64,000 nucleotides of DNA, taken from Siphonodentalium dalli. Its lineage: Eukaryota > Mollusca > Scaphopoda > Gadilida > Siphonodentaliidae. This document shows positions 1,372 through 51,259 of the stretch, in pieces (position 1 is the stretch's first letter; every line of letters begins with the position of its first letter). The DNA lies in assembly GCA_032622095.1 (NCBI GenBank), contig CP136062.1:12115710-12179709 (forward strand), in the 5' to 3' direction. Below the pieces are notes generated by a model. The model saw only the letters and a list, made by a program, of their open reading frames with translations. It was not told the DNA's origin and ran no database searches. The position numbers were made by a program, and so were the translations under genes.

Positions 1372-1438
1372 TAAAGCGATAGCCCGCTTTTTCGCGGAAT
1401 AATTGTAACTCCCTACATTTCTTCAGAATTTCCCATCA

Positions 1439-15804: not shown

Positions 15805-15816
15805 CCCTTTAAAGCG
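15805..15816 (+). other. MITE-free target site, unit 12 (CCCTTTAAAGCG)
   Basis: This is the only junction type that equals the filled site minus the element and one TA. It could be either an original empty site or a precise excision. The monomer is 901 bp. The same junction occurs at 45573-45584. Confidence 0.9.
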
Positions 15817-18800
15817 ATAGCCCGCTTTTTCGCGGAATAATTGTAACTCCCTACATTTCTTCAGAATTTCCCATCAATGGAAAAAATGTGTTCAAAAACA
15901 ATATCACTTCTGTGGTTCTTTATTTATCACACACAATTTAACCCCACCCCCTTTAACAAATTATTCATCAAAAAAGCACAATTTTCCACCACCAGTCATG
16001 TTCAGGCCCCATTTTCACTCAGTTTTAGGGGTCTGGTGTTGCAAACTTGGATCAGCTATGGAAGACTGTTCAATATTCTTTCCATGAGAGAACTTCTGGT
16101 GATGTGAGGTCATTGAGTCCAGATCTGATCAGCTGAGCATCAAGCGCATGACTTTATCAGCACATTGAAGAATAAAATATGACATTTTCAGGTCTGCAAG
16201 GGTGATCCAAGATAACTGGATGTGGGTGTACATTGAATTAGTTGAATAAAGATATGCTCTCTTTGAATTGCTGAAGCATTTTCTTAAATGTGTCCAAGTT
16301 TTAGTGCTATTAACCTTCAAATGACCATACCCACCAGTGGAAATGACACACTTTTATGATATATATATGTATATCACTGGCTATAAAATCCAAAATACTT
16401 GTTAAATTAGGTTCTTATAACAATTGAATTATGTGTCGTTGACATGCCCATGTTATGGGTCATTTGCATTATCATGTGACTATTACCACCTTGAAAAATT
16501 TTGAAAATACCTTGAAAAATTGGCATTTTTTAATGAAAAATCTTACTATTTTTTTGGCTGATGTAAGTGAAAGAAGGCATCAGCAGCAAGAATAGCCACA
16601 TCAAGCATGAGATATTCATTGGACTGAAATACCAGGCTCTGTAAAATGCATTAAAATGCTTTAAAGTGACTCCCAGGAATCAAAAATGATAAAAAGCTAT
16701 TTTTTCCCTTTAGGTTACACTGGTGTAAATGTTTTCCATAGGCCTCAGTGCTAACGTTTTAGCGTATAGTGTTGCCAATATAAATGTTGGGTCCAAAATT
16801 TTCTTTAAATCTGAAAAATTGACATTTTGGGAAACTTTTTACACAAAAAAATCATGTCTGTCTAGCAGGGAATTCGCCTTTAAATCTTATGTTTTCGTAA
16901 CTAGTGTCAGAACCGCATAAAAAAATACAGTCATATTTTAGACCACACCAAAAAATTCAAACTTCACTACAAAGGGTTAATTCCTGTGCCAATGGTTATT
17001 TTACCTATGGGAAATCATAGGGAAGAGGTGTGATGATTTTTTTATGTGAAAAGCACACAAGGCTATTGACCAATCAGGGCCCAGTGTCTATTTTATTCTC
17101 TCCTATATATTCCTCCCGCATCCGCTAGATGTCACTCGGAACCTTATTTACACCAGTGTAACCTAAAGCGATAGCCCGCTTTTTCGCGGAATAATTGTAA
17201 CTCCCTACATTTCTTCAGAATTTCCCATCAATGGAAAAAATGTGTTCAAAAACAATATCACTTCTGTGGTTCTTTATTTATCACACACAATTTAACCCCA
17301 CCCCCTTTAACAAATTATTCATCAAAAAAGCACAATTTTCCACCACCAGTCATGTTCAGGCCCCATTTTCACTCAGTTTTAGGGGTCTGGTGTTGCAAAC
17401 TTGGATCAGCTATGGAAGACTGTTCAATATTCTTTCCATGAGAGAACTTCTGGTGATGTGAGGTCATTGAGTCCAGATCTGATCAGCTGAGCATCAAGCG
17501 CATGACTTTATCAGCACATTGAAGAATAAAATATGACATTTTCAGGTCTGCAAGGGTGATCCAAGATAACTGGATGTGGGTGTACATTGAATTAGTTGAA
17601 TAAAGATATGCTCTCTTTGAATTGCTGAAGCATTTTCTTAAATGTGTCCAAGTTTTAGTGCTATTAACCTTCAAATGACCATACCCACCAGTGGAAATGA
17701 CACACTTTTATGATATATATATGTATATCACTGGCTATAAAATCCAAAATACTTGTTAAATTAGGTTCTTATAACAATTGAATTATGTGTCGTTGACATG
17801 CCCATGTTATGGGTCATTTGCATTATCATGTGACTATTACCACCTTGAAAAATTTTGAAAATACCTTGAAAAATTGGCATTTTTTAATGAAAAATCTTAC
17901 TATTTTTTTGGCTGATGTAAGTGAAAGAAGGCATCAGCAGCAAGAATAGCCACATCAAGCATGAGATATTCATTGGACTGAAATACCAGGCTCTGTAAAA
18001 TGCATTAAAATGCTTTAAAGTGACTCCCAGGAATCAAAAATGATAAAAAGCTATTTTTTCCCTTTAGGTTACACTGGTGTAAATGTTTTCCATAGGCCTC
18101 AGTGCTAACGTTTTAGCGTATAGTGTTGCCAATATAAATGTTGGGTCCAAAATTTTCTTTAAATCTGAAAAATTGACATTTTGGGAAACTTTTTACACAA
18201 AAAAATCATGTCTGTCTAGCAGGGAATTCGCCTTTAAATCTTATGTTTTCGTAACTAGTGTCAGAACCGCATAAAAAAATACAGTCATATTTTAGACCAC
18301 ACCAAAAAATTCAAACTTCACTACAAAGGGTTAATTCCTGTGCCAATGGTTATTTTACCTATGGGAAATCATAGGGAAGAGGTGTGATGATTTTTTTATG
18401 TGAAAAGCACACAAGGCTATTGACCAATCAGGGCCCAGTGTCTATTTTATTCTCTCCTATATATTCCTCCCGCATCCGCTAGATGTCACTCGGAACCTTA
18501 TTTACACCAGTGTAACCTAAAGCGATAGCCCGCTTTTTCGCGGAATAATTGTAACTCCCTACATTTCTTCAGAATTTCCCATCAATGGAAAAAATGTGTT
18601 CAAAAACAATATCACTTCTGTGGTTCTTTATTTATCACACACAATTTAACCCCACCCCCTTTAACAAATTATTCATCAAAAAAGCACAATTTTCCACCAC
18701 CAGTCATGTTCAGGCCCCATTTTCACTCAGTTTTAGGGGTCTGGTGTTGCAAACTTGGATCAGCTATGGAAGACTGTTCAATATTCTTTCCATGAGAGAA

Positions 18801-21800
18801 CTTCTGGTGATGTGAGGTCATTGAGTCCAGATCTGATCAGCTGAGCATCAAGCGCATGACTTTATCAGCACATTGAAGAATAAAATATGACATTTTCAGG
18901 TCTGCAAGGGTGATCCAAGATAACTGGATGTGGGTGTACATTGAATTAGTTGAATAAAGATATGCTCTCTTTGAATTGCTGAAGCATTTTCTTAAATGTG
19001 TCCAAGTTTTAGTGCTATTAACCTTCAAATGACCATACCCACCAGTGGAAATGACACACTTTTATGATATATATATGTATATCACTGGCTATAAAATCCA
19101 AAATACTTGTTAAATTAGGTTCTTATAACAATTGAATTATGTGTCGTTGACATGCCCATGTTATGGGTCATTTGCATTATCATGTGACTATTACCACCTT
19201 GAAAATGTTTGAAAATACCTTGAAAAATTGGCATTTTTTAATGAAAAATCTTACTATTTTTTTGGCTGATGTAAGTGAAAGAAGGCATCAGCAGCAAGAA
19301 TAGCCACATCAAGCATGAGATATTCATTGGACTGAAATACCAGGCTCTGTAAAATGCATTAAAATGCTTTAAAGTGACTCCCAGGAATCAAAAATGATAA
19401 AAAGCTATTTTTTCCCTTTAGGTTACACTGGTGTAAATGTTTTCCATAGGCCTCAGTGCTAACGTTTTAGCGTATAGTGTTGCCAATATAAATGTTGGGT
19501 CCAAAATTTTCTTTAAATCTGAAAAATTGACATTTTGGGAAACTTTTTACACAAAAAAATCATGTCTGTCTAGCAGGGAATTCGCCTTTAAATCTTATGT
19601 TTTCGTAACTAGTGTCAGAACCGCATAAAAAAATACAGTCATATTTTAGACCAAACCAAAAAATTCAAACTTCACTACAAAGGGTTAATTCCTGTGCCAA
19701 TGGTTATTTTACCTATGGGAAATCATAGGGAAGAGGTGTGATGATTTTTTTATGTGAAAAGCACACAAGGCTATTGACCAATCAGGGCCCAGTGTCTATT
19801 TTATTCTCTCCTATATATTCCTCCCGCATCCGCTAGATGTCACTCGGAACCTTATTTACACCAGTGTAACCTAAAGCGATAGCCCGCTTTTTCGCGGAAT
19901 AATTGTAACTCCCTACATTTCTTCAGAATTTCCCATCAATGGAAAAAATGTGTTCAAAAACAATATCACTTCTGTGGTTCTTTATTTATCACACACAATT
20001 TAACCCCACCCCCTTTAACAAATTATTCATCAAAAAAGCACAATTTTCCACCACCAGTCATGTTCAGGCCCCATTTTCACTCAGTTTTAGGGGTCTGGTG
20101 TTGCAAACTTGGATCAGCTATGGAAGACTGTTCAATATTCTTTCCATGAGAGAACTTCTGGTGATGTGAGGTCATTGAGTCCAGATCTGATCAGCTGAGC
20201 ATCAAGCGCATGACTTTATCAGCACATTGAAGAATAAAATATGACATTTTCAGGTCTGCAAGGGTGATCCAAGATAACTGGATGTGGGTGTACATTGAAT
20301 TAGTTGAATAAAGATATGCTCTCTTTGAATTGCTGAAGCATTTTCTTAAATGTGTCCAAGTTTTAGTGCTATTAACCTTCAAATGACCATACCCACCAGT
20401 GGAAATGACACACTTTTATGATATATATATGTATATCACTGGCTATAAAATCCAAAATACTTGTTAAATTAGGTTCTTATAACAATTGAATTATGTGTCG
20501 TTGACATGCCCATGTTATGGGTCATTTGCATTATCATGTGACTATTACCACCTTGAAAAATTTTGAAAATACCTTGAAAAATTGGCATTTTTTAATGAAA
20601 AATCTTACTATTTTTTTGGCTGATGTAAGTGAAAGAAGGCATCAGCAGCAAGAATAGCCACATCAAGCATGAGATATTCATTGGACTGAAATACCAGGCT
20701 CTGTAAAATGCATTAAAATGCTTTAAAGTGACTCCCAGGAATCAAAAATGATAAAAAGCTATTTTTTCCCTTTAGGTTACACTGGTGTAAATGTTTTCCA
20801 TAGGCCTCAGTGCTAACGTTTTAGCGTATAGTGTTGCCAATATAAATGTTGGGTCCAAAATTTTCTTTAAATCTGAAAAATTGACATTTTGGGAAACTTT
20901 TTACACAAAAAAATCATGTCTGTCTAGCAGGGAATTCGCCTTTAAATCTTATGTTTTCGTAACTAGTGTCAGAACCGCATAAAAAAATACAGTCATATTT
21001 TAGACCACACCAAAAAATTCAAACTTCACTACAAAGGGTTAATTCCTGTGCCAATGGTTATTTTACCTATGGGAAATCATAGGGAAGAGGTGTGATGATT
21101 TTTTTATGTGAAAAGCACACAAGGCTATTGACCAATCAGGGCCCAGTGTCTATTTTATTCTCTCCTATATATTCCTCCCGCATCCGCTAGATGTCACTCG
21201 GAACCTTATTTACACCAGTGTAACCTAAAGCGATAGCCCGCTTTTTCGCGGAATAATTGTAACTCCCTACATTTCTTCAGAATTTCCCATCAATGGAAAA
21301 AATGTGTTCAAAAACAATATCACTTCTGTGGTTCTTTATTTATCACACACAATTTAACCCCACCCCCTTTAACAAATTATTCATCAAAAAAGCACAATTT
21401 TCCACCACCAGTCATGTTCAGGCCCCATTTTCACTCAGTTTTAGGGGTCTGGTGTTGCAAACTTGGATCAGCTATGGAAGACTGTTCAATATTCTTTCCA
21501 TGAGAGAACTTCTGGTGATGTGAGGTCATTGAGTCCAGATCTGATCAGCTGAGCATCAAGCGCATGACTTTATCAGCACATTGAAGAATAAAATATGACA
21601 TTTTCAGGTCTGCAAGGGTGATCCAAGATAACTGGATGTGGGTGTACATTGAATTAGTTGAATAAAGATATGCTCTCTTTGAATTGCTGAAGCATTTTCT
21701 TAAATGTGTCCAAGTTTTAGTGCTATTAACCTTCAAATGACCATACCCACCAGTGGAAATGACACACTTTTATGATATATATATGTATATCACTGGCTAT

Positions 21801-23475
21801 AAAATCCAAAATACTTGTTAAATTAGGTTCTTATAACAATTGAATTATGTGTCGTTGACATGCCCATGTTATGGGTCATTTGCATTATCATGTGACTATT
21901 ACCACCTTGAAAATTTTTGAAAATACCTTGAAAAATTGGCATTTTTTAATGAAAAATCTTACTATTTTTTTGGCTGATGTAAGTGAAAGAAGGCATCAGC
22001 AGCAAGAATAGCCACATCAAGCATGAGATATTCATTGGACTGAAATACCAGGCTCTGTAAAATGCATTAAAATGCTTTAAAGTGACTCCCAGGAATCAAA
22101 AATGATAAAAAGCTATTTTTTCCCTTTAGGTTACACTGGTGTAAATGTTTTCCATAGGCCTCAGTGCTAACGTTTTAGCGTATAGTGTTGCCAATATAAA
22201 TGTTGGGTCCAAAATTTTCTTTAAATCTGAAAAATTGACATTTTGGGAAACTTTTTACACAAAAAAATCATGTCTGTCTAGCAGGGAATTCGCCTTTAAA
22301 TCTTATGTTTTCGTAACTAGTGTCAGAACCGCATAAAAAAATACAGTCATATTTTAGACCACACCAAAAAATTCAAACTTCACTACAAAGGGTTAATTCC
22401 TGTGCCAATGGTTATTTTACCTATGGGAAATCATAGGGAAGAGGTGTGATGATTTTTTTATGTGAAAAGCACACAAGGCTATTGACCAATCAGGGCCCAG
22501 TGTCTATTTTATTCTCTCCTATATATTCCTCCCGCATCCGCTAGATGTCACTCGGAACCTTATTTACACCAGTGTAACCTAAAGCGATAGCCCGCTTTTT
22601 CGCGGAATAATTGTAACTCCCTACATTTCTTCAGAATTTCCCATCAATGGAAAAAATGTGTTCAAAAACAATATCACTTCTGTGGTTCTTTATTTATCAC
22701 ACACAATTTAACCCCACCCCCTTTAACAAATTATTCATCAAAAAAGCACAATTTTCCACCACCAGTCATGTTCAGGCCCCATTTTCACTCAGTTTTAGGG
22801 GTCTGGTGTTGCAAACTTGGATCAGCTATGGAAGACTGTTCAATATTCTTTCCATGAGAGAACTTCTGGTGATGTGAGGTCATTGAGTCCAGATCTGATC
22901 AGCTGAGCATCAAGCGCATGACTTTATCAGCACATTGAAGAATAAAATATGACATTTTCAGGTCTGCAAGGGTGATCCAAGATAACTGGATGTGGGTGTA
23001 CATTGAATTAGTTGAATAAAGATATGCTCTCTTTGAATTGCTGAAGCATTTTCTTAAATGTGTCCAAGTTTTAGTGCTATTAACCTTCAAATGACCATAC
23101 CCACCAGTGGAAATGACACACTTTTATGATATATATATGTATATCACTGGCTATAAAATCCAAAATACTTGTTAAATTAGGTTCTTATAACAATTGAATT
23201 ATGTGTCGTTGACATGCCCATGTTATGGGTCATTTGCATTATCATGTGACTATTACCACCTTGAAAAATTTTGAAAATACCTTGAAAAATTGGCATTTTT
23301 TAATGAAAAATCTTACTATTTTTTTGGCTGATGTAAGTGAAAGAAGGCATCAGCAGCAAGAATAGCCACATCAAGCATGAGATATTCATTGGACTGAAAT
23401 ACCAGGCTCTGTAAAATGCATTAAAATGCTTTAAAGTGACTCCCAGGAATCAAAAATGATAAAAAGCTATTTTTT

Positions 23476-23485
23476 CCCTAAAGCG
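23476..23485 (+). other. MITE-free junction, unit 18 (CCCTAAAGCG)
   Basis: It is two bases shorter than the perfect empty site, with TT missing on the left. The monomer is 899 bp. The unit also carries private changes (CCTATCAATGG, and G in CATGTTCTTAAA) shared only with unit 20. Confidence 0.9.
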
Positions 23486-25728
23486 ATAGCCCGCTTTTTC
23501 GCGGAATAATTGTAACTCCCTACATTTCTTCAGAATTTCCTATCAATGGAAAAAATGTGTTCAAAAACAATATCACTTCTGTGGTTCTTTATTTATCACA
23601 CACAATTTAACCCCACCCCCTTTAACAAATTATTCATCAAAAAAGCACAATTTTCCACCACCAGTCATGTTCAGGCCCCATTTTCACTCAGTTTTAGGGG
23701 TCTGGTGTTGCAAACTTGGATCAGCTATGGAAGACTGTTCAATATTCTTTCCATGAGAGAACTTCTGGTGATGTGAGGTCATTGAGTCCAGATCTGATCA
23801 GCTGAGCATCAAGCGCATGACTTTATCAGCACATTGAAGAATAAAATATGACATTTTCAGGTCTGCAAGGGTGATCCAAGATAACTGGATGTGGGTGTAC
23901 ATTGAATTAGTTGAATAAAGATATGCTCTCTTTGAATTGCTGAAGCATGTTCTTAAATGTGTCCAAGTTTTAGTGCTATTAACCTTCAAATGACCATACC
24001 CACCAGTGGAAATGACACACTTTTATGATATATATATGTATATCACTGGCTATAAAATCCAAAATACTTGTTAAATTAGGTTCTTATAACAATTGAATTA
24101 TGTGTCGTTGACATGCCCATGTTATGGGTCATTTGCATTATCATGTGACTATTACCACCTTGAAAAATTTTGAAAATACCTTGAAAAATTGGCATTTTTT
24201 AATGAAAAATCTTACTATTTTTTTGGCTGATGTAAGTGAAAGAAGGCATCAGCAGCAAGAATAGCCACATCAAGCATGAGATATTCATTGGACTGAAATA
24301 CCAGGCTCTGTAAAATGCATTAAAATGCTTTAAAGTGACTCCCAGGAATCAAAAATGATAAAAAGCTATTTTTTCCCTTTAGGTTACACTGGTGTAAATG
24401 TTTTCCATAGGCCTCAGTGCTAACGTTTTAGCGTATAGTGTTGCCAATATAAATGTTGGGTCCAAAATTTTCTTTAAATCTGAAAAATTGACATTTTGGG
24501 AAACTTTTTACACAAAAAAATCATGTCTGTCTAGCAGGGAATTCGCCTTTAAATCTTATGTTTTCGTAACTAGTGTCAGAACCGCATAAAAAAATACAGT
24601 CATATTTTAGACCACACCAAAAAATTCAAACTTCACTACAAAGGGTTAATTCCTGTGCCAATGGTTATTTTACCTATGGGAAATCATAGGGAAGAGGTGT
24701 GATGATTTTTTTATGTGAAAAGCACACAAGGCTATTGACCAATCAGGGCCCAGTGTCTATTTTATTCTCTCCTATATATTCCTCCCGCATCCGCTAGATG
24801 TCACTCGGAACCTTATTTACACCAGTGTAACCTAAAGCGATAGCCCGCTTTTTCGCGGAATAATTGTAACTCCCTACATTTCTTCAGAATTTCCCATCAA
24901 TGGAAAAAATGTGTTCAAAAACAATATCACTTCTGTGGTTCTTTATTTATCACACACAATTTAACCCCACCCCCTTTAACAAATTATTCATCAAAAAAGC
25001 ACAATTTTCCACCACCAGTCATGTTCAGGCCCCATTTTCACTCAGTTTTAGGGGTCTGGTGTTGCAAACTTGGATCAGCTATGGAAGACTGTTCAATATT
25101 CTTTCCATGAGAGAACTTCTGGTGATGTGAGGTCATTGAGTCCAGATCTGATCAGCTGAGCATCAAGCGCATGACTTTATCAGCACATTGAAGAATAAAA
25201 TATGACATTTTCAGGTCTGCAAGGGTGATCCAAGATAACTGGATGTGGGTGTACATTGAATTAGTTGAATAAAGATATGCTCTCTTTGAATTGCTGAAGC
25301 ATTTTCTTAAATGTGTCCAAGTTTTAGTGCTATTAACCTTCAAATGACCATACCCACCAGTGGAAATGACACACTTTTATGATATATATATGTATATCAC
25401 TGGCTATAAAATCCAAAATACTTGTTAAATTAGGTTCTTATAACAATTGAATTATGTGTCGTTGACATGCCCATGTTATGGGTCATTTGCATTATCATGT
25501 GACTATTACCACCTTGAAAAATTTTGAAAATACCTTGAAAAATTGGCATTTTTTAATGAAAAATCTTACTATTTTTTTGGCTGATGTAAGTGAAAGAAGG
25601 CATCAGCAGCAAGAATAGCCACATCAAGCATGAGATATTCATTGGACTGAAATACCAGGCTCTGTAAAATGCATTAAAATGCTTTAAAGTGACTCCCAGG
25701 AATCAAAAATGATAAAAAGCTATTTTTT

Positions 25729-25738
25729 CCCTAAAGCG
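25729..25738 (+). other. MITE-free junction, unit 20 (CCCTAAAGCG)
   Basis: It has the same junction and the same private variants as unit 18. Units 17-18 and 19-20 are therefore a tandem duplication of a 2253-bp long-plus-short pair, and this is not an independent MITE loss. Confidence 0.9.
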
Positions 25739-28700
25739 ATAGCCCGCTTTTTCGCGGAATAATTGTAACTCCCTACATTTCTTCAGAATTTCCTATCAAT
25801 GGAAAAAATGTGTTCAAAAACAATATCACTTCTGTGGTTCTTTATTTATCACACACAATTTAACCCCACCCCCTTTAACAAATTATTCATCAAAAAAGCA
25901 CAATTTTCCACCACCAGTCATGTTCAGGCCCCATTTTCACTCAGTTTTAGGGGTCTGGTGTTGCAAACTTGGATCAGCTATGGAAGACTGTTCAATATTC
26001 TTTCCATGAGAGAACTTCTGGTGATGTGAGGTCATTGAGTCCAGATCTGATCAGCTGAGCATCAAGCGCATGACTTTATCAGCACATTGAAGAATAAAAT
26101 ATGACATTTTCAGGTCTGCAAGGGTGATCCAAGATAACTGGATGTGGGTGTACATTGAATTAGTTGAATAAAGATATGCTCTCTTTGAATTGCTGAAGCA
26201 TGTTCTTAAATGTGTCCAAGTTTTAGTGCTATTAACCTTCAAATGACCATACCCACCAGTGGAAATGACACACTTTTATGATATATATATGTATATCACT
26301 GGCTATAAAATCCAAAATACTTGTTAAATTAGGTTCTTATAACAATTGAATTATGTGTCGTTGACATGCCCATGTTATGGGTCATTTGCATTATCATGTG
26401 ACTATTACCACCTTGAAAAATTTTGAAAATACCTTGAAAAATTGGCATTTTTTAATGAAAAATCTTACTATTTTTTTGGCTGATGTAAGTGAAAGAAGGC
26501 ATCAGCAGCAAGAATAGCCACATCAAGCATGAGATATTCATTGGACTGAAATACCAGGCTCTGTAAAATGCATTAAAATGCTTTAAAGTGACTCCCAGGA
26601 ATCAAAAATGATAAAAAGCTATTTTTTCCCTTTAGGTTACACTGGTGTAAATGTTTTCCATAGGCCTCAGTGCTAACGTTTTAGCGTATAGTGTTGCCAA
26701 TATAAATGTTGGGTCCAAAATTTTCTTTAAATCTGAAAAATTGACATTTTGGGAAACTTTTTACACAAAAAAATCATGTCTGTCTAGCAGGGAATTCGCC
26801 TTTAAATCTTATGTTTTCGTAACTAGTGTCAGAACCGCATAAAAAAATACAGTCATATTTTAGACCACACCAAAAAATTCAAACTTCACTACAAAGGGTT
26901 AATTCCTGTGCCAATGGTTATTTTACCTATGGGAAATCATAGGGAAGTGGTGTGATGATTTTTTTATGTGAAAAGCACACAAGGCTATTGACCAATCAGG
27001 GCCCAGTGTCTATTTTATTCTCTCCTATATATTCCTCCCGCATCCGCTAGATGTCACTCGGAACCTTATTTACACCAGTGTAACCTAAAGCGATAGCCCG
27101 CTTTTTCGCGGAATAATTGTAACTCCCTACATTTCTTCAGAATTTCCCATCAATGGAAAAAATGTGTTCAAAAACAATATCACTTCTGTGGTTCTTTATT
27201 TATCACACACAATTTAACCCCACCCCCTTTAACAAATTATTCATCAAAATAGCACAATTTTCCACCACCAGTCATGTTCAGGCCCCATTTTCACTCAGTT
27301 TTAGGGGTCTGGTGTTGCAAACTTGGATCAGCTATGGAAGACTGTTCAATATTCTTTCCATGAGAGAACTTCTGGTGATGTGAGGTCATTGAGTCCAGAT
27401 CTGATCAGCTGAGCATCAAGCGCATGACTTTATCAGCACATTGAAGAATAAAATATGACATTTTCAGGTCTGCAAGGGTGATCCAAGATAACTGGATGTG
27501 GGTGTACATTGAATTAGTTGAATAAAGATATGCTCTCTTTGAATTGCTGAAGCATTTTCTTAAATGTGTCCAAGTTTTAGTGCTATTAACCTTCAAATGA
27601 CCATACCCACCAGTGGAAATGACACACTTTTATGATATATATATGTATATCACTGGCTATAAAATCCAAAATACTTGTTAAATTAGGTTCTTATAACAAT
27701 TGAATTATGTGTCGTTGACATGCCCATGTTATGGGTCATTTGCATTATCATGTGACTATTACCACCTTGAAAAATTTTGAAAATACCTTGAAAAATTGGC
27801 ATTTTTTAATGAAAAATCTTACTATTTTTTTGGCTGATGTAAGTGAAAGAAGGCATCAGCAGCAAGAATAGCCACATCAAGCATGAGATATTCATTGGAC
27901 TGAAATACCAGGCTCTGTAAAATGCATTAAAATGCTTTAAAGTGACTCCCAGGAATCAAAAATGATAAAAAGCTATTTTTTCCCTTTAGGTTACACTGGT
28001 GTAAATGTTTTCCATAGGCCTCAGTGCTAACGTTTTAGCGTATAGTGTTGCCAATATAAATGTTGGGTCCAAAATTTTCTTTAAATCTGAAAAATTGACA
28101 TTTTGGGAAACTTTTTACACAAAAAAATCATGTCTGTCTAGCAGGGAATTCGCCTTTAAATCTTATGTTTTCGTAACTAGTGTCAGAACCGCATAAAAAA
28201 ATACAGTCATATTTTAGACCACACCAAAAAATTCAAACTTCACTACAAAGGGTTAATTCCTGTGCCAATGGTTATTTTACCTATGGGAAATCATAGGGAA
28301 GAGGTGTGATGATTTTTTTATGTGAAAAGCACACAAGGCTATTGACCAATCAGGGCCCAGTGTCTATTTTATTCTCTCCTATATATTCCTCCCGCATCCG
28401 CTAGATGTCACTCGGAACCTTATTTACACCAGTGTAACCTAAAGCGATAGCCCGCTTTTTCGCGGAATAATTGTAACTCCCTACATTTCTTCAGAATTTC
28501 CCATCAATGGAAAAAATGTGTTCAAAAACAATATCACTTCTGTGGTTCTTTATTTATCACACACAATTTAACCCCACCCCCTTTAACAAATTATTCATCA
28601 AAAAAGCACAATTTTCCACCACCAGTCATGTTCAGGCCCCATTTTCACTCAGTTTTAGGGGTCTGGTGTTGCAAACTTGGATCAGCTATGGAAGACTGTT

Positions 28701-29335
28701 CAATATTCTTTCCATGAGAGAACTTCTGGTGATGTGAGGTCATTGAGTCCAGATCTGATCAGCTGAGCATCAAGCGCATGACTTTATCAGCACATTGAAG
28801 AATAAAATATGACATTTTCAGGTCTGCAAGGGTGATCCAAGATAACTGGATGTGGGTGTACATTGAATTAGTTGAATAAAGATATGCTCTCTTTGAATTG
28901 CTGAAGCATTTTCTTAAATGTGTCCAAGTTTTAGTGCTATTAACCTTCAAATGACCATACCCACCAGTGGAAATGACACACTTTTATGATATATATATGT
29001 ATATCACTGGCTATAAAATCCAAAATACTTGTTAAATTAGGTTCTTATAACAATTGAATTATGTGTCGTTGACATGCCCATGTTATGGGTCATTTGCATT
29101 ATCATGTGACTATTACCACCTTGAAAAAATTTGAAAATACCTTGAAAAATTGGCATTTTTTAATGAAAAATCTTACTATTTTTTTGGCTGATGTAAGTGA
29201 AAGAAGGCATCAGCAGCAAGAATAGCCACATCAAGCATGAGATATTCATTGGACTGAAATACCAGGCTCTGTAAAATGCATTAAAATGCTTTAAAGTGAC
29301 TCCCAGGAATCAAAAATGATAAAAAGCTATTTTTT

Positions 29336-29346
29336 CCCTTTAAGCG
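29336..29346 (+). other. MITE-free junction, unit 23 (CCCTTTAAGCG)
   Basis: One A is missing relative to the perfect empty site, and the monomer is 900 bp. This junction occurs once in the array. Confidence 0.9.
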
Positions 29347-35300: not shown

Positions 35301-38300
35301 TATGATATATATATGTATATCACTGGCTATAAAATCCAAAATACTTGTTAAATTAGGTTCTTATAACAATTGAATTATGTGTCGTTGACATGCCCATGTT
35401 ATGGGTCATTTGCATTATCATGTGACTATTACCACCTTGAAAAAATTTGAAAATACCTTGAAAAATTGGCATTTTTTAATGAAAAATCTTACTATTTTTT
35501 TGGCTGATGTAAGTGAAAGAAGGCATCAGCAGCAAGAATAGCCACATCAAGCATGAGATATTCATTGGACTGAAATACCAGGCTCTGTAAAATGCATTAA
35601 AATGCTTTAAAGTGACTCCCAGGAATCAAAAATGATAAAAAGCTATTTTTTCCCTTTAGGTTACACTGGTGTAAATGTTTTCCATAGGCCTCAGTGCTAA
35701 CGTTTTAGCGTATAGTGTTGCCAATATAAATGTTGGGTCCAAAATTTTCTTTAAATCTGAAAAATTGACATTTTGGGAAACTTTTTACACAAAAAAATCA
35801 TGTCTGTCTAGCAGGGAATTCGCCTTTAAATCTTATGTTTTCGTAACTAGTGTCAGAACCGCATAAAAAAATACAGTCATATTTTAGACCACAACAAAAA
35901 ATTCAAACTTCACTACAAAGGGTTAATTCCTGTGCCAATGGTTATTTTACCTATGGGAAATCATAGGGAAGAGGTGTGATGATTTTTTTATGTGAAAAGC
36001 ACACAAGGCTATTGACCAATCAGGGCCCAGTGTCTATTTTATTCTCTCCTATATATTCCTCCCGCATCCGCTAGATGTCACTCGGAACCTTATTTACACC
36101 AGTGTAACCTAAAGCGATAGCCCGCTTTTTCGCGGAATAATTGTAACTCCCTACATTTCTTCAGAATTTCCCATCAATGGAAAAAATGTGTTCAAAAACA
36201 ATATCACTTCTGTGGTTCTTTATTTATCACACACAATTTAACCCCACCCCCTTTAACAAATTATTCATCAAAAAAGCACAATTTTCCACCACCAGTCATG
36301 TTCAGGCCCCATTTTCACTCAGTTTTAGGGGTCTGGTGTTGCAAACTTGGATCAGCTATGAAAGACTGTTCAATATTCTTTCCATGAGAGAACTTCTGGT
36401 GATGTGAGGTCATTGAGTCCAGATCTGATCAGCTGAGCATCAAGCGCATGACTTTATCAGCACATTGAAGAATAAAATATGACATTTTCAGGTCTGCAAG
36501 GGTGATCCAAGATAACTGGATGTGGGTGTACATTGAATTAGTTGAATAAAGATATGCTCTCTTTGAATTGCTGAAGCATTTTCTTAAATGTGTCCAAGTT
36601 TTAGTGCTATTAACCTTCAAATGACCATACCCACCAGTGGAAATGACACACTTTTATGATATATATATGTATATCACTGGCTATAAAATCCAAAATACTT
36701 GTTAAATTAGGTTCTTATAACAATTGAATTATGTGTCGTTGACATGCCCATGTTATGGGTCATTTGCATTATCATGTGACTATTACCACCTTGAAAAAAT
36801 TTGAAAATACCTTGAAAAATTGGCATTTTTTAATGAAAAATCTTACTATTTTTTTGGCTGATGTAAGTGAAAGAAGGCATCAGCAGCAAGAATAGCCACA
36901 TCAAGCATGAGATATTCATTGGACTGAAATACCAGGCTCTGTAAAATGCATTAAAATGCTTTAAAGTGACTCCCAGGAATCAAAAATGATAAAAAGCTAT
37001 TTTTTCCCTTTAGGTTACACTGGTGTAAATGTTTTCCATAGGCCTCAGTGCTAACGTTTTAGCGTATAGTGTTGCCAATATAAATGTTGGGTCCAAAATT
37101 TTCTTTAAATCTGAAAAATTGACATTTTGGGAAACTTTTTACACAAAAAAATCATGTCTGTCTAGCAGGGAATTCGCCTTTAAATCTTATGTTTTCGTAA
37201 CTAGTGTCAGAACCGCATAAAAAAATACAGTCATATTTTAGACCACACCAAAAAATTCAAACTTCACTACAAAGGGTTAATTCCTGTGCCAATGGTTATT
37301 TTACCTATGGGAAATCATAGGGAAGAGGTGTGATGATTTTTTTATGTGAAAAGCACACAAGGCTATTGACCAATCAGGGCCCAGTGTCTATTTTATTCTC
37401 TCCTATATATTCCTCCCGCATCCGCTAGATGTCACTCGGAACCTTATTTACACCAGTGTAACCTAAAGCGATAGCCCGCTTTTTCGCGGAATAATTGTAA
37501 CTCCCTACATTTCTTCAGAATTTCCCATCAATGGAAAAAATGTGTTCAAAAACAATATCACTTCTGTGGTTCTTTATTTATCACACACAATTTAACCCCA
37601 CCCCCTTTAACAAATTATTCATCAAAAAAGCACAATTTTCCACCACCAGTCATGTTCAGGCCCCATTTTCACTCAGTTTTAGGGGTCTGGTGTTGCAAAC
37701 TTGGATCAGCTATGGAAGACTGTTCAATATTCTTTCCATGAGAGAACTTCTGGTGATGTGAGGTCATTGAGTCCAGATCTGATCAGCTGAGCATCAAGCG
37801 CATGACTTTATCAGCACATTGAAGAATAAAATATGACATTTTCAGGTCTGCAAGGGTGATCCAAGATAACTGGATGTGGGTGTACATTGAATTAGTTGAA
37901 TAAAGATATGCTCTCTTTGAATTGCTGAAGCATTTTCTTAAATGTGTCCAAGTTTTAGTGCTATTAACCTTCAAATGACCATACCCACCAGTGGAAATGA
38001 CACACTTTTATGATATATATATGTATATCACTGGCTATAAAATCCAAAATACTTGTTAAATTAGGTTCTTATAACAATTGAATTATGTGTCGTTGACATG
38101 CCCATGTTATGGGTCATTTGCATTATCATGTGACTATTACCACCTTGAAAAATTTTGAAAATACCTTGAAAAATTGGCATTTTTTAATGAAAAATCTTAC
38201 TATTTTTTTGGCTGATGTAAGTGAAAGAAGGCATCAGCAGCAAGAATAGCCACATCAAGCATGAGATATTCATTGGACTGAAATACCAGGCTCTGTAAAA

Positions 38301-39720
38301 TGCATTAAAATGCTTTAAAGTGACTCCCAGGAATCAAAAATGATAAAAAGCTATTTTTTCCCTTTAGGTTACACTGGTGTAAATGTTTTCCATAGGCCTC
38401 AGTGCTAACGTTTTAGCGTATAGTGTTGCCAATATAAATGTTGGGTCCAAAAGTTTCTTTAAATCTGAAAAATTGACATTTTGGGAAACTTTTTACACAA
38501 AAAAATCATGTCTGTCTAGCAGGGAATTCGCCTTTAAATCTTATGTTTTCGTAACTAGTGTCAGAACCGCATAAAAAAATACAGTCATATTTTAGACCAC
38601 ACCAAAAAATTCAAACTTCACTACAAAGGGTTAATTCCTGTGCCAATGGTTATTTTACCTATGGGAAATCATAGGGAAGAGGTGTGATGATTTTTTTATG
38701 TGAAAAGCACACAAGGCTATTGACCAATCAGGGCCCAGTGACTATTTTATTCTCTCCTATATATTCCTCCCGCATCCGCTAGATGTCACTCGGAACCTTA
38801 TTTACACCAGTGTAACCTAAAGCGATAGCCCGCTTTTTCGCGGAATAATTGTAACTCCCTACATTTCTTCAGAATTTCCCATCAATGGAAAAAATGTGTT
38901 CAAAAACAATATCACTTCTGTGGTTCTTTATTTATCACACACAATTTAACCCCACCCCCTTTAACAAATTATTCATCAAAAAAGCACAATTTTCCACCAC
39001 CAGTCATGTTCAGGCCCCATTTTCACTCAGTTTTAGGGGTCTGGTGTTGCAAACTTGGATCAGCTATGGAAGACTGTTCAATATTCTTTCCATGAGAGAA
39101 TTTCTGGTGATGTGAGGTCATTGAGTCCAGATCTGATCAGCTGAGCATCAAGCGCATGACTTTATCAGCACATTGAAGAATAAAATATGACATTTTCAGG
39201 TCTGCAAGGGTGATCCAAGATAACTGGATGTGGGTGTACATTGAATTAGTTGAATAAAGATATGCTCTCTTTGAATTGCTGAAGCATTTTCTTAAATGTG
39301 TCCAAGTTTTAGTGCTATTAACCTTCAAATGACCATACCCACCAGTGGAAATGACACACTTTTATGATATATATATGTATATCACTGGCTATAAAATCCA
39401 AAATACTTGTTAAATTAGGTTCTTATAACAATTGAATTATGTGTCGTTGACATGCCCATGTTATGGGTCATTTGCATTATCATGTGACTATTACCACCTT
39501 GAAAAATTTTGAAAATACCTTGAAAAATTGGCATTTTTTAATGAAAAATCTTACTATTTTTTTGGCTGATGTAAGTGAAAGAAGGCATCAGCAGCAAGAA
39601 TAGCCACATCAAGCATGAGATATTCATTGGACTGAAATACCAGGCTCTGTAAAATGCATTAAAATGCTTTAAAGTGACTCCCAGGAATCAAAAATGATAA
39701 AAAGCTATTTTTTCCCTTTA

Positions 39721-40170
39721 GGTTACACTGGTGTAAATGTTTTCCATAGGCCTCAGTGCTAACGTTTTAGCGTATAGTGTTGCCAATATAAATGTTGGGT
39801 CCAAAATTTTCTTTAAATCTGAAAAATTGACATTTTGGGAAACTTTTTACACAAAAAAATCATGTCTGTCTAGCAGGGAATTCGCCTTTAAATCTTATGT
39901 TTTCGTAACTAGTGTCAGAACCGCATAAAAAAATACAGTCATATTTTAGACCACACCAAAAAATTCAAACTTCACTACAAAGGATTAATTCCTGTGCCAA
40001 TGGTTATTTTACCTATGGGAAATCATAGGGAAGAGGTGTGATGATTTTTTTATGTGAAAAGCACACAAGGCTATTGACCAATCAGGGCCCAGTGTCTATT
40101 TTATTCTCTCCTATATATTCCTCCCGCATCCGCTAGATGTCACTCGGAACCTTATTACACCAGTGTAACC
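39721..40170 (+). mobile_element. MITE copy with a damaged 3' TIR
   Basis: This copy is 450 bp because one T is missing from the 3' inverted repeat (ATTACACCAG instead of ATTTACACCAG). The TIR match is therefore interrupted near its inner edge. The outermost 14 bases are intact. Confidence 0.85.
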
Positions 40171-42420
40171 TAAAGCGATAGCCCGCTTTTTCGCGGAATA
40201 ATTGTAACTCCCTACATTTCTTCAGAATTTCCCATCAATGGAAAAAATGTGTTCAAAAACAATATCACTTCTGTGGTTCTTTATTTATCACACACAATTT
40301 AACCCCACCCCCTTTAACAAATTATTCATCAAAAAAGCACAATTTTCCACCACCAGTCATGTTCAGGCCCCATTTTCACTCAGTTTTAGGGGTCTGGTGT
40401 TGCAAACTTGGATCAGCTATGGAAGACTGTTCAATATTCTTTCCATGAGAGAATTTCTGGTGATGTGAGGTCATTGAGTCCAGATCTGATCAGCTGAGCA
40501 TCAAGCGCATGACTTTATCAGCACATTGAAGAATAAAATATGACATTTTCAGGTCTGCAAGGGTGATCCAAGATAACTGGATGTGGGTGTACATTGAATT
40601 AGTTGAATAAAGATATGCTCTCTTTGAATTGCTGAAGCATTTTCTTAAATGTGTCCAAGTTTTAGTGCTATTAACCTTCAAATGACCATACCCACCAGTG
40701 GAAATGACACACTTTTATGATATATATATGTATATCACTGGCTATAAAATCCAAAATACTTGTTAAATTAGGTTCTTATAACAATTGAATTATGTGTCGT
40801 TGACATGCCCATGTTATGGGTCATTTGCATTATCATGTGACTATTACCACCTTGAAAAATTTTGAAAATACCTTGAAAAATTGGCATTTTTTAATGAAAA
40901 ATCTTACTATTTTTTTGGCTGATGTAAGTGAAAGAAGGCATCAGCAGCAAGAATAGCCACATCAAGCATGAGATATTCATTGGACTGAAATACCAGGCTC
41001 TGTAAAATGCATTAAAATGCTTTAAAGTGACTCCCAGGAATCAAAAATGATAAAAAGCTATTTTTTCCCTTTAGGTTACACTGGTGTAAATGTTTTCCAT
41101 AGGCCTCAGTGCTAACGTTTTAGCGTATAGTGTTGCCAATATAAATGTTGGGTCCAAAATTTTCTTTAAATCTGAAAAATTGACATTTTGGGAAACTTTT
41201 TACACAAAAAAATCATGTCTGTCTAGCAGGGAATTCGCCTTTAAATCTTATGTTTTCGTAACTAGTGTCAGAACCGCATAAAAAAATACAGTCATATTTT
41301 AGACCACACCAAAAAATTCAAACTTCACTACAAAGGGTTAATTCCTGTGCCAATGGTTATTTTACCTATGGGAAATCATAGGGAAGAGGTGTGATGATTT
41401 TTTTATGTGAAAAGCACACAAGGCTATTGACCAATCAGGGCCCAGTGTCTATTTTATTCTCTCCTATATATTCCTCCCGCATCCGCTAGATGTCACTCGG
41501 AACCTTATTTACACCAGTGTAACCTAAAGCGATAGCCCGCTTTTTCGCGGAATAATTGTAACTCCCTACATTTCTTCAGAATTTCCCATCAATGGAAAAA
41601 ATGTGTTCAAAAACAATATCACTTCTGTGGTTCTTTATTTATCACACACAATTTAACCCCACCCCCTTTAACAAATTATTCATCAAAAAAGCACAATTTT
41701 CCACCACCAGTCATGTTCAGGCCCCATTTTCACTCAGTTTTAGGGGTCTGGTGTTGCAAACTTGGATCAGCTATGGAAGACTGTTCAATATTCTTTCCAT
41801 GAGAGAACTTCTGGTGATGTGAGGTCATTGAGTCCAGATCTGATCAGCTGAGCATCAAGCGCATGACTTTATCAGCACATTGAAGAATAAAATATGACAT
41901 TTTCAGGTCTGCAAGGGTGATCCAAGATAACTGGATGTGGGTGTACATTGAATTAGTTGAATAAAGATATGCTCTCTTTGAATTGCTGAAGCATTTTCTT
42001 AAATGTGTCCAAGTTTTAGTGCTATTAACCTTCAAATGACCATACCCACCAGTGGAAATGACACACTTTTATGATATATATATGTATATCACTGGCTATA
42101 AAATCCAAAATACTTGTTAAATTAGGTTCTTATAACAATTGAATTATGTGTCGTTGACATGCCCATGTTATGGGTCATTTGCATTATCATGTGACTATTA
42201 CCACCTTGAAAAAATTTGAAAATACCTTGAAAAATTGGCATTTTTTAATGAAAAATCTTACTATTTTTTTGGCTGATGTAAGTGAAAGAAGGCATCAGCA
42301 GCAAGAATAGCCACATCAAGCATGAGATATTCATTGGACTGAAATACCAGGCTCTGTAAAATGCATTAAAATGCTTTAAAGTGACTCCCAGGAATCAAAA
42401 ATGATAAAAAGCTATTTTTT

Positions 42421-42430
42421 CCCTTTAGCG
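42421..42430 (+). other. MITE-free junction, unit 33 (CCCTTTAGCG)
   Basis: Two A residues are missing on the right side of the target, and the monomer is 899 bp. It occurs once and is directly followed by another MITE-free unit. Confidence 0.9.
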
Positions 42431-43319
42431 ATAGCCCGCTTTTTCGCGGAATAATTGTAACTCCCTACATTTCTTCAGAATTTCCCATCAATGGAAAAAA
42501 TGTGTTCAAAAACAATATCACTTCTGTGGTTCTTTATTTATCACACACAATTTAACCCCACCCCCTTTAACAAATTATTCATCAAAAAAGCACAATTTTC
42601 CACCACCAGTCATGTTCAGGCCCCATTTTCACTCAGTTTTAGGGGTCTGGTGTTGCAAACTTGGATCAGCTATGGAAGACTGTTCAATATTCTTTCCATG
42701 AGAGAACTTCTGGTGATGTGAGGTCATTGAGTCCAGATCTGATCAGCTGAGCATCAAGCGCATGACTTTATCAGCACATTGAAGAATAAAATATGACATT
42801 TTCAGGTCTGCAAGGGTGATCCAAGATAACTGGATGTGGGTGTACATTGAATTAGTTGAATAAAGATATGCTCTCTTTGAATTGCTGAAGCATTTTCTTA
42901 AATGTGTCCAAGTTTTAGTGCTATTAACCTTCAAATGACCATACCCACCAGTGGAAATGACACACTTTTATGATATATATATGTATATCACTGGCTATAA
43001 AATCCAAAATACTTGTTAAATTAGGTTCTTATAACAATTGAATTATGTGTCGTTGACATGCCCATGTTATGGGTCATTTGCATTATCATGTGACTATTAC
43101 CACCTTGAAAAATTTTGAAAATACCTTGAAAAATTGGCATTTTTTAATGAAAAATCTTACTATTTTTTTGGCTGATGTAAGTGAAAGAAGGCATCAGCAG
43201 CAAGAATAGCCACATCAAGCATGAGATATTCATTGGACTGAAATACCAGGCTCTGTAAAATGCATTAAAATGCTTTAAAGTGACTCCCAGGAATCAAAAA
43301 TGATAAAAAGCTATTTTTT

Positions 43320-43329
43320 CCCTAAAGCG
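43320..43329 (+). other. MITE-free junction, unit 34 (CCCTAAAGCG)
   Basis: The unit shares the private variant AACTTGATGTGG (T for G) with unit 37, 3154 bp downstream. It is therefore part of a duplicated block. Confidence 0.9.
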
Positions 43330-45572
43330 ATAGCCCGCTTTTTCGCGGAATAATTGTAACTCCCTACATTTCTTCAGAATTTCCCATCAATGGAAAAAAT
43401 GTGTTCAAAAACAATATCACTTCTGTGGTTCTTTATTTATCACACACAATTTAACCCCACCCCCTTTAACAAATTATTCATCAAAAAAGCACAATTTTCC
43501 ACCACCAGTCATGTTCAGGCCCCATTTTCACTCAGTTTTAGGGGTCTGGTGTTGCAAACTTGGATCAGCTATGGAAGACTGTTCAATATTCTTTCCATGA
43601 GAGAACTTCTGGTGATGTGAGGTCATTGAGTCCAGATCTGATCAGCTGAGCATCAAGCGCATGACTTTATCAGCACATTGAAGAATAAAATATGACATTT
43701 TCAGGTCTGCAAGGGTGATCCAAGATAACTTGATGTGGGTGTACATTGAATTAGTTGAATAAAGATATGCTCTCTTTGAATTGCTGAAGCATTTTCTTAA
43801 ATGTGTCCAAGTTTTAGTGCTATTAACCTTCAAATGACCATACCCACCAGTGGAAATGACACACTTTTATGATATATATATGTATATCACTGGCTATAAA
43901 ATCCAAAATACTTGTTAAATTAGGTTCTTATAACAATTGAATTATGTGTCGTTGACATGCCCATGTTATGGGTCATTTGCATTATCATGTGACTATTACC
44001 ACCTTGAAAAAATTTGAAAATACCTTGAAAAATTGGCATTTTTTAATGAAAAATCTTACTATTTTTTTGGCTGATGTAAGTGAAAGAAGGCATCAGCAGC
44101 AAGAATAGCCACATCAAGCATGAGATATTCATTGGACTGAAATACCAGGCTCTGTAAAATGCATTAAAATGCTTTAAAGTGACTCCCAGGAATCAAAAAT
44201 GATAAAAAGCTATTTTTTCCCTTTAGGTTACACTGGTGTAAATGTTTTCCATAGGCCTCAGTGCTAACGTTTTAGCGTATAGTGTTGCCAATATAAATGT
44301 TGGGTCCAAAATTTTCTTTAAATCTGAAAAATTGACATTTTGGGAAACTTTTTACACAAAAAAATCATGTCTGTCTAGCAGGGAATTCGCCTTTAAATCT
44401 TATGTTTTCGTAACTAGTGTCAGAACCGCATAAAAAAATACAGTCATATTTTAGACCACACCAAAAAATTCAAACTTCACTACAAAGGGTTAATTCCTGT
44501 GCCAATGGTTATTTTACCTATGGGAAATCATAGGGAAGAGGTCTGATGATTTTTTTATGTGAAAAGCACACAAGGCTATTGACCAATCAGGGCCCAGTGT
44601 CTATTTTATTCTCTCCTATATATTCCTCCCGCATCCGCTAGATGTCACTCGGAACCTTATTTACACCAGTGTAACCTAAAGCGATAGCCCGCTTTTTCGC
44701 GGAATAATTGTAACTCCCTACATTTCTTCAGAATTTCCCATCAATGGAAAAAATGTGTTCAAAAACAATATCACTTCTGTGGTTCTTTATTTATCACACA
44801 CAATTTAACCCCACCCCCTTTAACAAATTATTCATCAAAAAAGCACAATTTTCCACCACCAGTCATGTTCAGGCCCCATTTTCACTCAGTTTTAGGGGTC
44901 TGGTGTTGCAAACTTGGATCAGCTATGGAAGACTGTTCAATATTCTTTCCATGAGAGAACTTCTGGTGATGTGAGGTCATTGAGTCCAGATCTGATCAGC
45001 TGAGCATCAAGCGCGTGACTTTATCAGCACATTGAAGAATAAAATATGACATTTTCAGGTCTGCAAGGGTGATCCAAGATAACTGGATGTGGGTGTACAT
45101 TGAATTAGTTGAATAAAGATATGCTCTCTTTGAATTGCTGAAGCATTTTCTTAAATGTGTCCAAGTTTTAGTGCTATTAACCTTCAAATGACCATACCCA
45201 CCAGTGGAAATGACACACTTTTATGATATATATATGTATATCACTGGCTATAAAATCCAAAATACTTGTTAAATTAGGTTCTTATAACAATTGAATTATG
45301 TGTCGTTGACATGCCCATGTTATGGGTCATTTGCATTATCATGTGACTATTACCACCTTGAAAAAATTTGAAAATACCTTGAAAATTTGGCATTTTTTAA
45401 TGAAAAATCTTACTATTTTTTTGGCTGATGTAAGTGAAAGAAGGCATCAGCAGCAAGAATAGCCACATCAAGCATGAGATATTCATTGGACTGAAATACC
45501 AGGCTCTGTAAAATGCATTAAAATGCTTTAAAGTGACTCCCAGGAATCAAAAATGATAAAAAGCTATTTTTT

Positions 45573-45584
45573 CCCTTTAAAGCG
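45573..45584 (+). other. MITE-free junction, unit 36 (CCCTTTAAAGCG)
   Basis: This is a perfect empty site in a 901-bp monomer. By position it is the counterpart of unit 33 in the duplicated short-short-long block, yet its junction is two bases longer. Confidence 0.9.
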
Positions 45585-46473
45585 ATAGCCCGCTTTTTCG
45601 CGGAATAATTGTAACTCCCTACATTTCTTCAGAATTTCCCATCAATGGAAAAAATGTGTTCAAAAACAATATCACTTCTGTGGTTCTTTATTTATCACAC
45701 ACAATTTAACCCCACCCCCTTTAACAAATTATTCATCAAAAAAGCACAATTTTCCACCACCAGTCATGTTCAGGCCCCATTTTCACTCAGTTTTAGGGGT
45801 CTGGTGTTGCAAACTTGGATCAGCTATGGAAGACTGTTCAATATTCTTTCCATGAGAGAACTTCTGGTGATGTGAGGTCATTGAGTCCAGATCTGATCAG
45901 CTGAGCATCAAGCGCATGACTTTATCAGCACATTGAAGAATAAAATATGACATTTTCAGGTCTGCAAGGGTGATCCAAGATAACTGGATGTGGGTGTACA
46001 TTGAATTAGTTGAATAAAGATATGCTCTCTTTGAATTGCTGAAGCATTTTCTTAAATGTGTCCAAGTTTTAGTGCTATTAACCTTCAAATGACCATACCC
46101 ACCAGTGGAAATGACACACTTTTATGATATATATATGTATATCACTGGCTATAAAATCCAAAATACTTGTTAAATTAGGTTCTTATAACAATTGAATTAT
46201 GTGTCGTTGACATGCCCATGTTATGGGTCATTTGCATTATCATGTGACTATTACCACCTTGAAAAATTTTGAAAATACCTTGAAAAATTGGCATTTTTTA
46301 ATGAAAAATCTTACTATTTTTTTGGCTGATGTAAGTGAAAGAAGGCATCAGCAGCAAGAATAGCCACATCAAGCATGAGATATTCATTGGACTGAAATAC
46401 CAGGCTCTGTAAAATGCATTAAAATGCTTTAAAGTGACTCCCAGGAATCAAAAATGATAAAAAGCTATTTTTT

Positions 46474-46483
46474 CCCTAAAGCG
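46474..46483 (+). other. MITE-free junction, unit 37 (CCCTAAAGCG)
   Basis: It is the duplicate of unit 34, with the same junction and the same private variant downstream. Confidence 0.9.
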
Positions 46484-49400: not shown

Positions 49401-51259
49401 TAGGGGTCTGGTGTTGCAAACTTGGATCAGCTATGGAAGACTGTTCAATATTCTTTCCATGAGAGAACTTCTGGTGATGTGAGGTCATTGAGTCCAGATC
49501 TGATCAGCTGAGCATCAAGCGCATGACTTTATCAGCACATTGAAGAATAAAATATGACATTTTCAGGTCTGCAAGGGTGATCCAAGATAACTGGATGTGG
49601 GTGTACATTGAATTAGTTGAATAAAGATATGCTCTCTTTGAATTGCTGAAGCATTTTCTTAAATGTGTCCAAGTTTTAGTGCTATTAACCTTCAAATGAC
49701 CATACCCACCAGTGGAAATGACACACTTTTATGATATATATATGTATATCACTGGCTATAAAATCCAAAATACTTGTTAAATTAGGTTCTTATAACAATT
49801 GAATTATGTGTCGTTGACATGCCCATGTTATGGGTCATTTGCATTATCATGTGACTATTACCACCTTGAAAAATTTTGAAAATACCTTGAAAAATTGGCA
49901 TTTTTTAATGAAAAATCTTACTATTTTTTTGGCTGATGTAAGTGAAAGAAGGCATCAGCAGCAAGAATAGCCACATCAAGCATGAGATATTCATTGGACT
50001 GAAATACCAGGCTCTGTAAAATGCATTAAAATGCTTTAAAGTGACTCCCAGGAATCAAAAATGATAAAAAGCTATTTTTTCCCTTTAGGTTACACTGGTG
50101 TAAATGTTTTCCATAGGCCTCAGTGCTAACGTTTTAGCGTATAGTGTTGCCAATATAAATGTTGGGTCCAAAATTTTCTTTAAATCTGAAAAATTGACAT
50201 TTTGGGAAACTTTTTACACAAAAAAATCATGTCTGTCTAGCAGGGAATTCGCCTTTAAATCTTATGTTTTCGTAACTAGTGTCAGAACCGCATAAAAAAA
50301 TACAGTCATATTTTAGACCACACCAAAAAATTCAAACTTCACTACAAAGGGTTAATTCCTGTGCCAATGGTTATTTTACCTATGGGAAATCATAGGGAAG
50401 AGGTGTGATGATTTTTTTATGTGAAAAGCACACAAGGCTATTGACCAATCAGGGCCCAGTGTCTATTTTATTCTCTCCTATATATTCCTCCCGCATCCGC
50501 TAGATGTCACTCGGAACCTTATTTACACCAGTGTAACCTAAAGCGATAGCCCGCTTTTTCGCGGAATAATTGTAACTCCCTACATTTCTTCAGAATTTCC
50601 CATCAATGGAAAAAATGTGTTCAAAAACAATATCACTTCTGTGGTTCTTTATTTATCACACACAATTTAACCCCACCCCCTTTAACAAATTATTCATCAA
50701 AAAAGCACAATTTTCCACCACCAGTCATGTTCAGGCCCCATTTTCACTCAGTTTTAGGGGTCTGGTGTTGCAAACTTGGATCAGCTATGGAAGACTGTTC
50801 AATATTCTTTCCATGAGAGAACTTCTGGTGATGTGAGGTCATTGAGTCCAGATCTGATCAGCTGAGCATCAAGCGCATGACTTTATCAGCACATTGAAGA
50901 ATAAAATATGACATTTTCAGGTCTGCAAGGGTGATCCAAGATAACTGGATGTGGGTGTACATTGAATTAGTTGAATAAAGATATGCTCTCTTTGAATTGC
51001 TGAAGCATTTTCTTAAATGTGTCCAAGTTTTAGTGCTATTAACCTTCAAATGACCATACCCACCAGTGGAAATGACACACTTTTATGATATATATATGTA
51101 TATCACTGGCTATAAAATCCAAAATACTTGTTAAATTAGGTTCTTATAACAATTGAATTATGTGTCGTTGACATGCCCATGTTATGGGTCATTTGCATTA
51201 TCATGTGACTATTACCACCTTGAAAAATTTTGAAAATACCTTGAAAAATTGGCATTTTT

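Follow-up and report, generated by a model that had tools for sequence, protein, structure and literature searches.

The satellite array described here very probably records the recurrent excision of one component, the LTDR, from a KolobokP-type transposon of Siphonodentalium dalli. It lies in the window, that is, the whole 64,000-nucleotide stretch of DNA that was analysed (C2:12115710-12179709, in a genome of 2.23 Gb and 9 contigs), where a unit of about 0.9 kb gives 40 junctions between a segment termed INT and a 451-bp insert, the LTDR. The insert is present at 32 of these junctions, reading CCCTTTA-[element]-TAAAGCG, and absent from eight (Table 1); the four joint sequences that a preliminary description had assigned to eight insert-free units (TTTAAA, TAAA, TTTAA and TTTA) are all found as described. 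The same description held that indels away from the joint are rare, and this is borne out by a comparison of 39 complete unit bodies (all but unit 1, which the array edge truncates), in which a single body indel occurs, an additional TA in a TA run of unit 5. Three short indels occur among the 32 window inserts. Because the bodies are nearly free of indels across the window units and their inner TTTAAA is constant in length, the joint is exceptional.

Table 1. Positions in the window of the satellite array, its inserts and its eight empty joints.
Feature	Position	Strand	Remarks
Satellite array (LTDR-INT)n, 40 INT/LTDR junctions	575..51256	+	Edges approximate, each within an INT copy
451-bp inserts (LTDR type A), 32 copies	923..50538	.	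First 923-1371, last 50088-50538
Unit 12 INT-INT joint TTTAAA	15808..15813	+	2 bp of TTTA+TAAA missing
Unit 18 INT-INT joint TAAA	23479..23482	+	4 bp missing
Unit 20 INT-INT joint TAAA	25732..25735	+	4 bp missing
Unit 23 INT-INT joint TTTAA	29339..29343	+	3 bp missing
Unit 33 INT-INT joint TTTA	42424..42427	+	4 bp missing
Unit 34 INT-INT joint TAAA	43323..43326	+	4 bp missing
Unit 36 INT-INT joint TTTAAA	45576..45581	+	2 bp missing
Unit 37 INT-INT joint TAAA	46477..46480	+	4 bp missing

To the right of the satellite, whose edge falls within an INT copy, a 40-bp repeat array of 51.8 copies follows directly (window 51257-53337), and further tandem arrays lie at 56499-56864 (45-bp period), 57977-60893 (55-bp) and 62803-63265 (37-bp). 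The window also holds four open reading frames of at least 100 amino acids to the right of the array, and an Rfam search of the window returned nothing at the gathering score.

The insert occurs in two types, both 451 bp long with GG...CC ends, which have perfect terminal inverted repeats (TIRs) of 18 bp (type A) or 19 bp (type B) and are about 71% alike over their first 250 bp; the LTDR ends read GGTTACACTGGTGTAAAT. In other copies type B occupies the same joint as type A (L018, L022, L046, L047, L058 and L064). INT is about 903 bp long and runs from TAAA to TTTA, for a composite of 451 + 903 + 451 = 1805 bp. This composite moved as a unit, as dispersed copies with one to four INTs carry 3-4 bp duplications outside the whole. 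Specifically, 27 solo or short-array loci (L034-L060) were examined for target duplications and 19 elements were used, all on contig C1 with both ends read; loci with one end missing, truncated or unread (L044, L045, L053, L055, L056 and L058) were left out, as were L052 and L054, in which neither insert nor unit matched. The duplications are of varied, AT-rich sequence and measure 4 bp in 18 of the 19 and 3 bp in the remaining one (L051). All five solo LTDRs with both ends read (L034-L038) have 4-bp duplications (AAAA, TACA, GATA, TTTA and GGCA), as do 13 of the 14 composites, for example L048 with TCAA on each side. Sola, a group with 4-bp target duplications, was considered as well. Single-INT composites of the form LTDR-INT-LTDR are seen at L040, L041, L042, L048-L051 and L059, while the multimers L046, L047 and L057, with four, three and two INTs, respectively, each have a single duplication around the whole.

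Since one duplication surrounds whole multimers, the arrangement seen in the array is that of a mobile composite, and the TTTA and TAAA that adjoin the insert are the two tips of the unit and not a target duplication. Thus the filled site, which had been taken for one MITE insertion into an existing satellite, must be described differently: its flanks are the differing tips of INT, and the composite has the insert as its terminal direct repeat. A single insertion into a pre-existing satellite was rejected because TTTA on one side and TAAA on the other are not the matching pair that a target duplication would give. Among individual copies, one INT (L019, C6:171187000-171192400) has about 1.6 kb of other sequence near base 825, and one LTDR (L011, C2:12412400-12414800) has a partial internal duplication, with 499 versus 456 bases between anchors.

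This anatomy is of a kind already described. KolobokP DNA transposons (Kojima and Bao, 2022, Mobile DNA 13:24, PMC9587614) are reported to follow the plan LTDR-INT-LTDR, with (LTDR-INT)n-LTDR multimers flanked by duplications and with solo LTDRs, and to have LTDRs of about 450 or 660 bp with TIRs of 11-18 bp and RR..YY ends, together with target duplications of 3-5 bp that show no strong site preference (PMC9587614). In the part of that paper available to us, the INT-INT joints of KolobokP have micro-deletions at either tip, which its authors explain by LTDR excision that takes 1-5 flanking bases one-sidedly, and autonomous members encode a Kolobok-type DDD/E transposase, accompanied in most families by a His-Me finger nuclease (PMC9587614). 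The S. dalli element shares the LTDR-INT-LTDR plan, the multimers, the solo LTDRs and the INT-INT joints with micro-deletions; its 451-bp LTDR, with TIRs of 18-19 bp and GG...CC ends, is within the class of about 450 bp with RR..YY ends, its 3-4 bp duplications are within the published range, and its 1805-bp composite compares with 1738-3261 bp for non-autonomous KolobokP families of oyster (PMC9587614). On these anatomical grounds the array is probably a satellite of a non-autonomous KolobokP-type composite. In contrast to KolobokP as published in the text available to us, the array here is of satellite size, with 40 units, and 413 anchored INT-INT joints occur genome-wide; that text likewise makes no mention of double LTDRs spaced by 4 bases, or of a single site shared by two LTDR types, which here are about 71% identical over 250 bp. 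Set against what is available of the published account, what is new here is the scale and the occurrence of double inserts.

A genome-wide pattern search with exact anchors gave 413 empty INT-INT joints, locally duplicated copies included, against 1945 filled left joints. The joint letters were read for all but at most 86 of the 413, these being 4 or 6 bases long. TTWAA joints (TTTAA or TTAAA) account for 121 and TAAA for 39 (49 if one mismatch is allowed), while the remaining 249 are of 4 or 6 bases, with at least 100 exact TTTAAA and at least 63 TTTA among the matches listed. The extremes are rare: two of the 413 joints have 7 or more bases (both TTTTAAA) and two have 0-3 bases, namely a blank joint, CCCGCG (L079, at C2:12445326), and AAA (L080). 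The 100 joints that were listed belong to five classes only (63 TTTA, 21 TTAAA, 9 TAAA, 4 TTTAA and 3 TTTAAA). Among the joints read, INT-INT joints have small deletions at one tip, with CCCGCG as the exception (1 of 413). Genome-wide and at exact anchors, neither a joint of 8-37 bases nor TTTAAAA was found; no insert bases are retained among the joints read, and TTTATAAA was never found as an empty joint and occurs only beside an LTDR. Loss of at least 2 bases past a 4-base joint has one match, the blank joint CCCGCG, in a search that needs both outer anchors and would miss longer deletions.

These counts bear on two other explanations. Excision of Tc1/mariner elements leaves a footprint of 2-3 end bases. 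The S. dalli insert resembles Tc1/mariner MITEs in being a short non-coding element with TIRs, and the TTTAAA joint mimics a TA duplication; unlike them, it has varied 3-4 bp duplications in 19 of 19 elements, and the joints at exact anchors lack both the 8-37-base lengths and, in all 100 listed, any insert bases. Tc1/mariner, which the preliminary description had brought in, is therefore not supported, and a TA target duplication was rejected because the true duplications are of 3-4 bp and varied sequence. Alternatively, the host might delete the insert at a hairpin of its inverted ends, by replication slippage or cruciform cutting and without a transposase, an idea that draws on the TTTA...TAAA flanks, which extend the 18-bp inverted repeat of the insert, and on T, A or TA microhomology at the joints. 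Hairpin deletions tend to leave stem bases or to enter the flanks, whereas the census at exact anchors has no joint of 8-37 bases and a single match at least 2 bases past the core, and the mobility of the insert is shown by solo copies with target duplications; we consider such host deletion very improbable. Satellites arising from mobile elements have parallels in the Xenopus MITEs Xstir and miDNA4, with inner tandem repeats, which are likewise mobile elements that carry or turn into a satellite; as far as the available part of that account goes, their repeats lie inside the MITE, whereas in S. dalli the insert forms the terminal repeat of a composite, in alternation with INT (PMC12628747).

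Recurrence of the losses was assessed beyond the window. The window unit bodies are nearly identical, so a tree of the window alone is uninformative, and divergence was drawn from arrays elsewhere in the genome, most of those read being about 1-4% divergent from the window unit, with one subfamily at 7-8% and one composite (L039) at 12%. Of 160 junctions, 141 were kept for comparisons after removal of 19 that had less than 440 bp on one side, the loci having been picked mostly from the TAAA and TTTAAA match lists, so that class frequencies among them are biased. Where the aligned end of the unit had fallen short, joints were relabelled before counting (CTTTAA to TTTAA in L009; CCCTTAAA, twice, to TTAAA in L008). 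In the 23 array-by-class combinations that have a local filled unit, the 900 bp surrounding each empty joint were set against those of local filled joints and of joints of that class elsewhere. Twenty-one of these are nearer the local filled joint, one ties (L020, TAAA) and one is without a comparator (L014, TTTTAAA), a result that depends on splitting the C1:275 Mb region into five groups and in which L011 and L012 are merged with the window. The losses thus recurred, in agreement with the earlier proposal of repeated loss with end-joining-like products in the TTTA/TAAA core. Window unit 23, for example, has no difference from a local filled joint and 14 from the nearest same joint elsewhere; at C1:0.46 Mb there is one difference locally versus 18-21, and at L061 one versus 54. 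For two of the 21 (C1:275.65 and L030, both TTTAAA) the margin is a single difference. When C1:275 Mb is treated as one group, the eight retained L008 units are equally close to local filled joints and to the same joint elsewhere, and L006 is 5 differences from the same joint elsewhere, 14 from a local filled unit and 4 from a filled unit elsewhere, which is the nearest. Among empty joints for which the junctions read include no local filled unit, L022 and L031 are 2 differences from filled units elsewhere and 12-13 from the same joint, and L021 and L025 are nearest each other. Short conversion tracts between arrays are possible, with the nearest diagnostic differences 2-162 bp to the left and 10-435 bp to the right.

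The same comparisons weigh on the proposal that the empty units are ancestral monomers, into which the insert came later, and that the joints differ by slippage in unrelated units. Some stretches are indeed mostly empty (C1:275.62-275.88 Mb), and the right flank at L020, TTTA[insert]TTTAA, agrees with an insertion that duplicated 4 bp of an empty site. However, no 4-bp duplication is formed by the standard flanks TTTA and TAAA; L039, the most diverged of the composites read (body 87.8% identical, its flanks ending in TTTA and beginning with TAAA, with one extra T in the left flank), is filled; and 21 of the 23 combinations are nearest a local filled unit. Slippage was rejected as the source of the joints because the inner TTTAAA of INT (window 15759-15764) and the INT homopolymer runs are constant in length across the 39 window bodies. 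In a tree of 152 junctions (the 141 together with 11 single-INT composites), empty units sit with filled ones in array-specific groups and not in one old clade; this tree is weakly resolved, and the at least 34 filled/empty changes that it needs are a rough figure, 70 of its 107 inner branches being weak. Ancestral empty monomers are thus a highly unlikely starting point.

For recurrent LTDR excision, we propose the following course. Because INT runs from a TAAA tip to a TTTA tip, we take the filled joint to be the original state, with the INT-INT joints as secondary products. The arrays may have been enlarged through unequal crossing-over between LTDRs, after which a transposase acting in trans would have cut single LTDRs from array units many times. 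The break ends, with 4-base tips TTTA and TAAA, would then have been joined again by partial overlap, of 1 base (TTTTAAA), 2 bases (TTTAAA), 3 bases (TTTAA or TTAAA) or 4 bases (TTTA or TAAA), and some products would have been multiplied by local duplication; in some units a second LTDR may have been put in beside the first, as LTDR-TTTA-LTDR. Nearly all joints read are overlaps of TTTA and TAAA by 1-4 bases, with TTTAAA the sole perfect pairing, and CCCGCG (L079) and AAA (L080) fall outside the set. Rejoining of 4-base ends, as a step by itself, we hold at somewhat less than an even chance.

In a variant of this explanation, the excised LTDR would take 1-5 flanking bases with it from one side, perhaps by way of the IS3/IS256-like circle that Kojima and Bao suggest (PMC9587614), and 4-base ends would not overlap. 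By itself this one-sided loss is a rather unlikely account, and its odds overlap those of the best explanation. TTTTAAA, TTTAAA, TTAAA, TTTAA, TTTA and TAAA all fit a loss of 1-4 bases and AAA a loss of 5; moreover, the blank joint CCCGCG and an LTDR-TAAATTTA-LTDR arrangement (L074) resemble the reciprocal halves of an 8-base event. CCCGCG itself fits neither overlap nor one-sided loss. TTTAAAA is permitted by a 1-base overlap and by one-sided loss, yet it is absent. The footprints in Figure 2 of the KolobokP paper cover six cases, besides which a few INT-INT insertions appear in the part available, and in a quahog family with TATA at both tips one TATA remains (PMC9587614), which overlap and one-sided loss both allow.

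Double inserts add to this comparison. Reintegration of a circle into an LTDR predicts doubles spaced by 2 or 3 bases, but the 23 tandem doubles found in a genome-wide search have a 4-base spacer, TTTA or TAAA, at 17 sites (five regions, with 11 of the 17 in one C9 array), the 8-base spacer TAAATTTA at five (one region) and 7 bases at one. TTTA-spaced pairs within one satellite unit occur at L073 (C9:89511000-89513700), L075, L076 and L078. At L073 a type B insert precedes type A with TTTA between, the order expected if B had inserted next to A with a 4-bp duplication. If A were then lost from such a pair, B would remain at a standard joint, which could explain how the two types share a site. 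The pair at L074 (C1:275917000-275919400), in which TAAATTTA separates the inserts, may be the reciprocal counterpart of the blank joint or reflect loss of a whole INT; removal of INT by cuts at the facing LTDR ends was considered.

Nonstandard flanks may have similar origins. Right flanks of at least 5 bases number 123; 79 TTTATAAA flanks among the 100 listed come from a single long array (C6:128.37-128.55 Mb), which together with L061 forms a 92-93% identical subfamily with TTTATAAA in place of TAAA. Left flanks of at least 5 bases number 16, mostly with an extra C. The right flanks TTTATAAA, TTTTAAA, TTTAAA, TTAAA and TTTAA fit loss of the older insert from doubles, or for some of them insertion at an empty joint; TATAAAA (L071) and TAAATTTA (L062) are not accounted for in this way.

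Taken further, and with a little less confidence than the rejoining step, excision may leave 4-base single-stranded flanks whose pairing sets the joint, TTTA and TAAA giving the perfect 2-base TTTAAA as well as mismatched overlaps of 1, 3 and 4 bases, and TATA with TATA giving one copy; the site would then cycle through loss, adjacent reinsertion and exchange of LTDR type, and the satellite would be a natural record of the joints. Where the available part of the KolobokP paper has six footprint cases (PMC9587614), S. dalli offers 413 anchored joints in near-identical arrays, with filled neighbours as controls. These joints make the cutting geometry of the putative transposase and the ensuing repair directly testable, and the array shows a route from a composite transposon to a large satellite.
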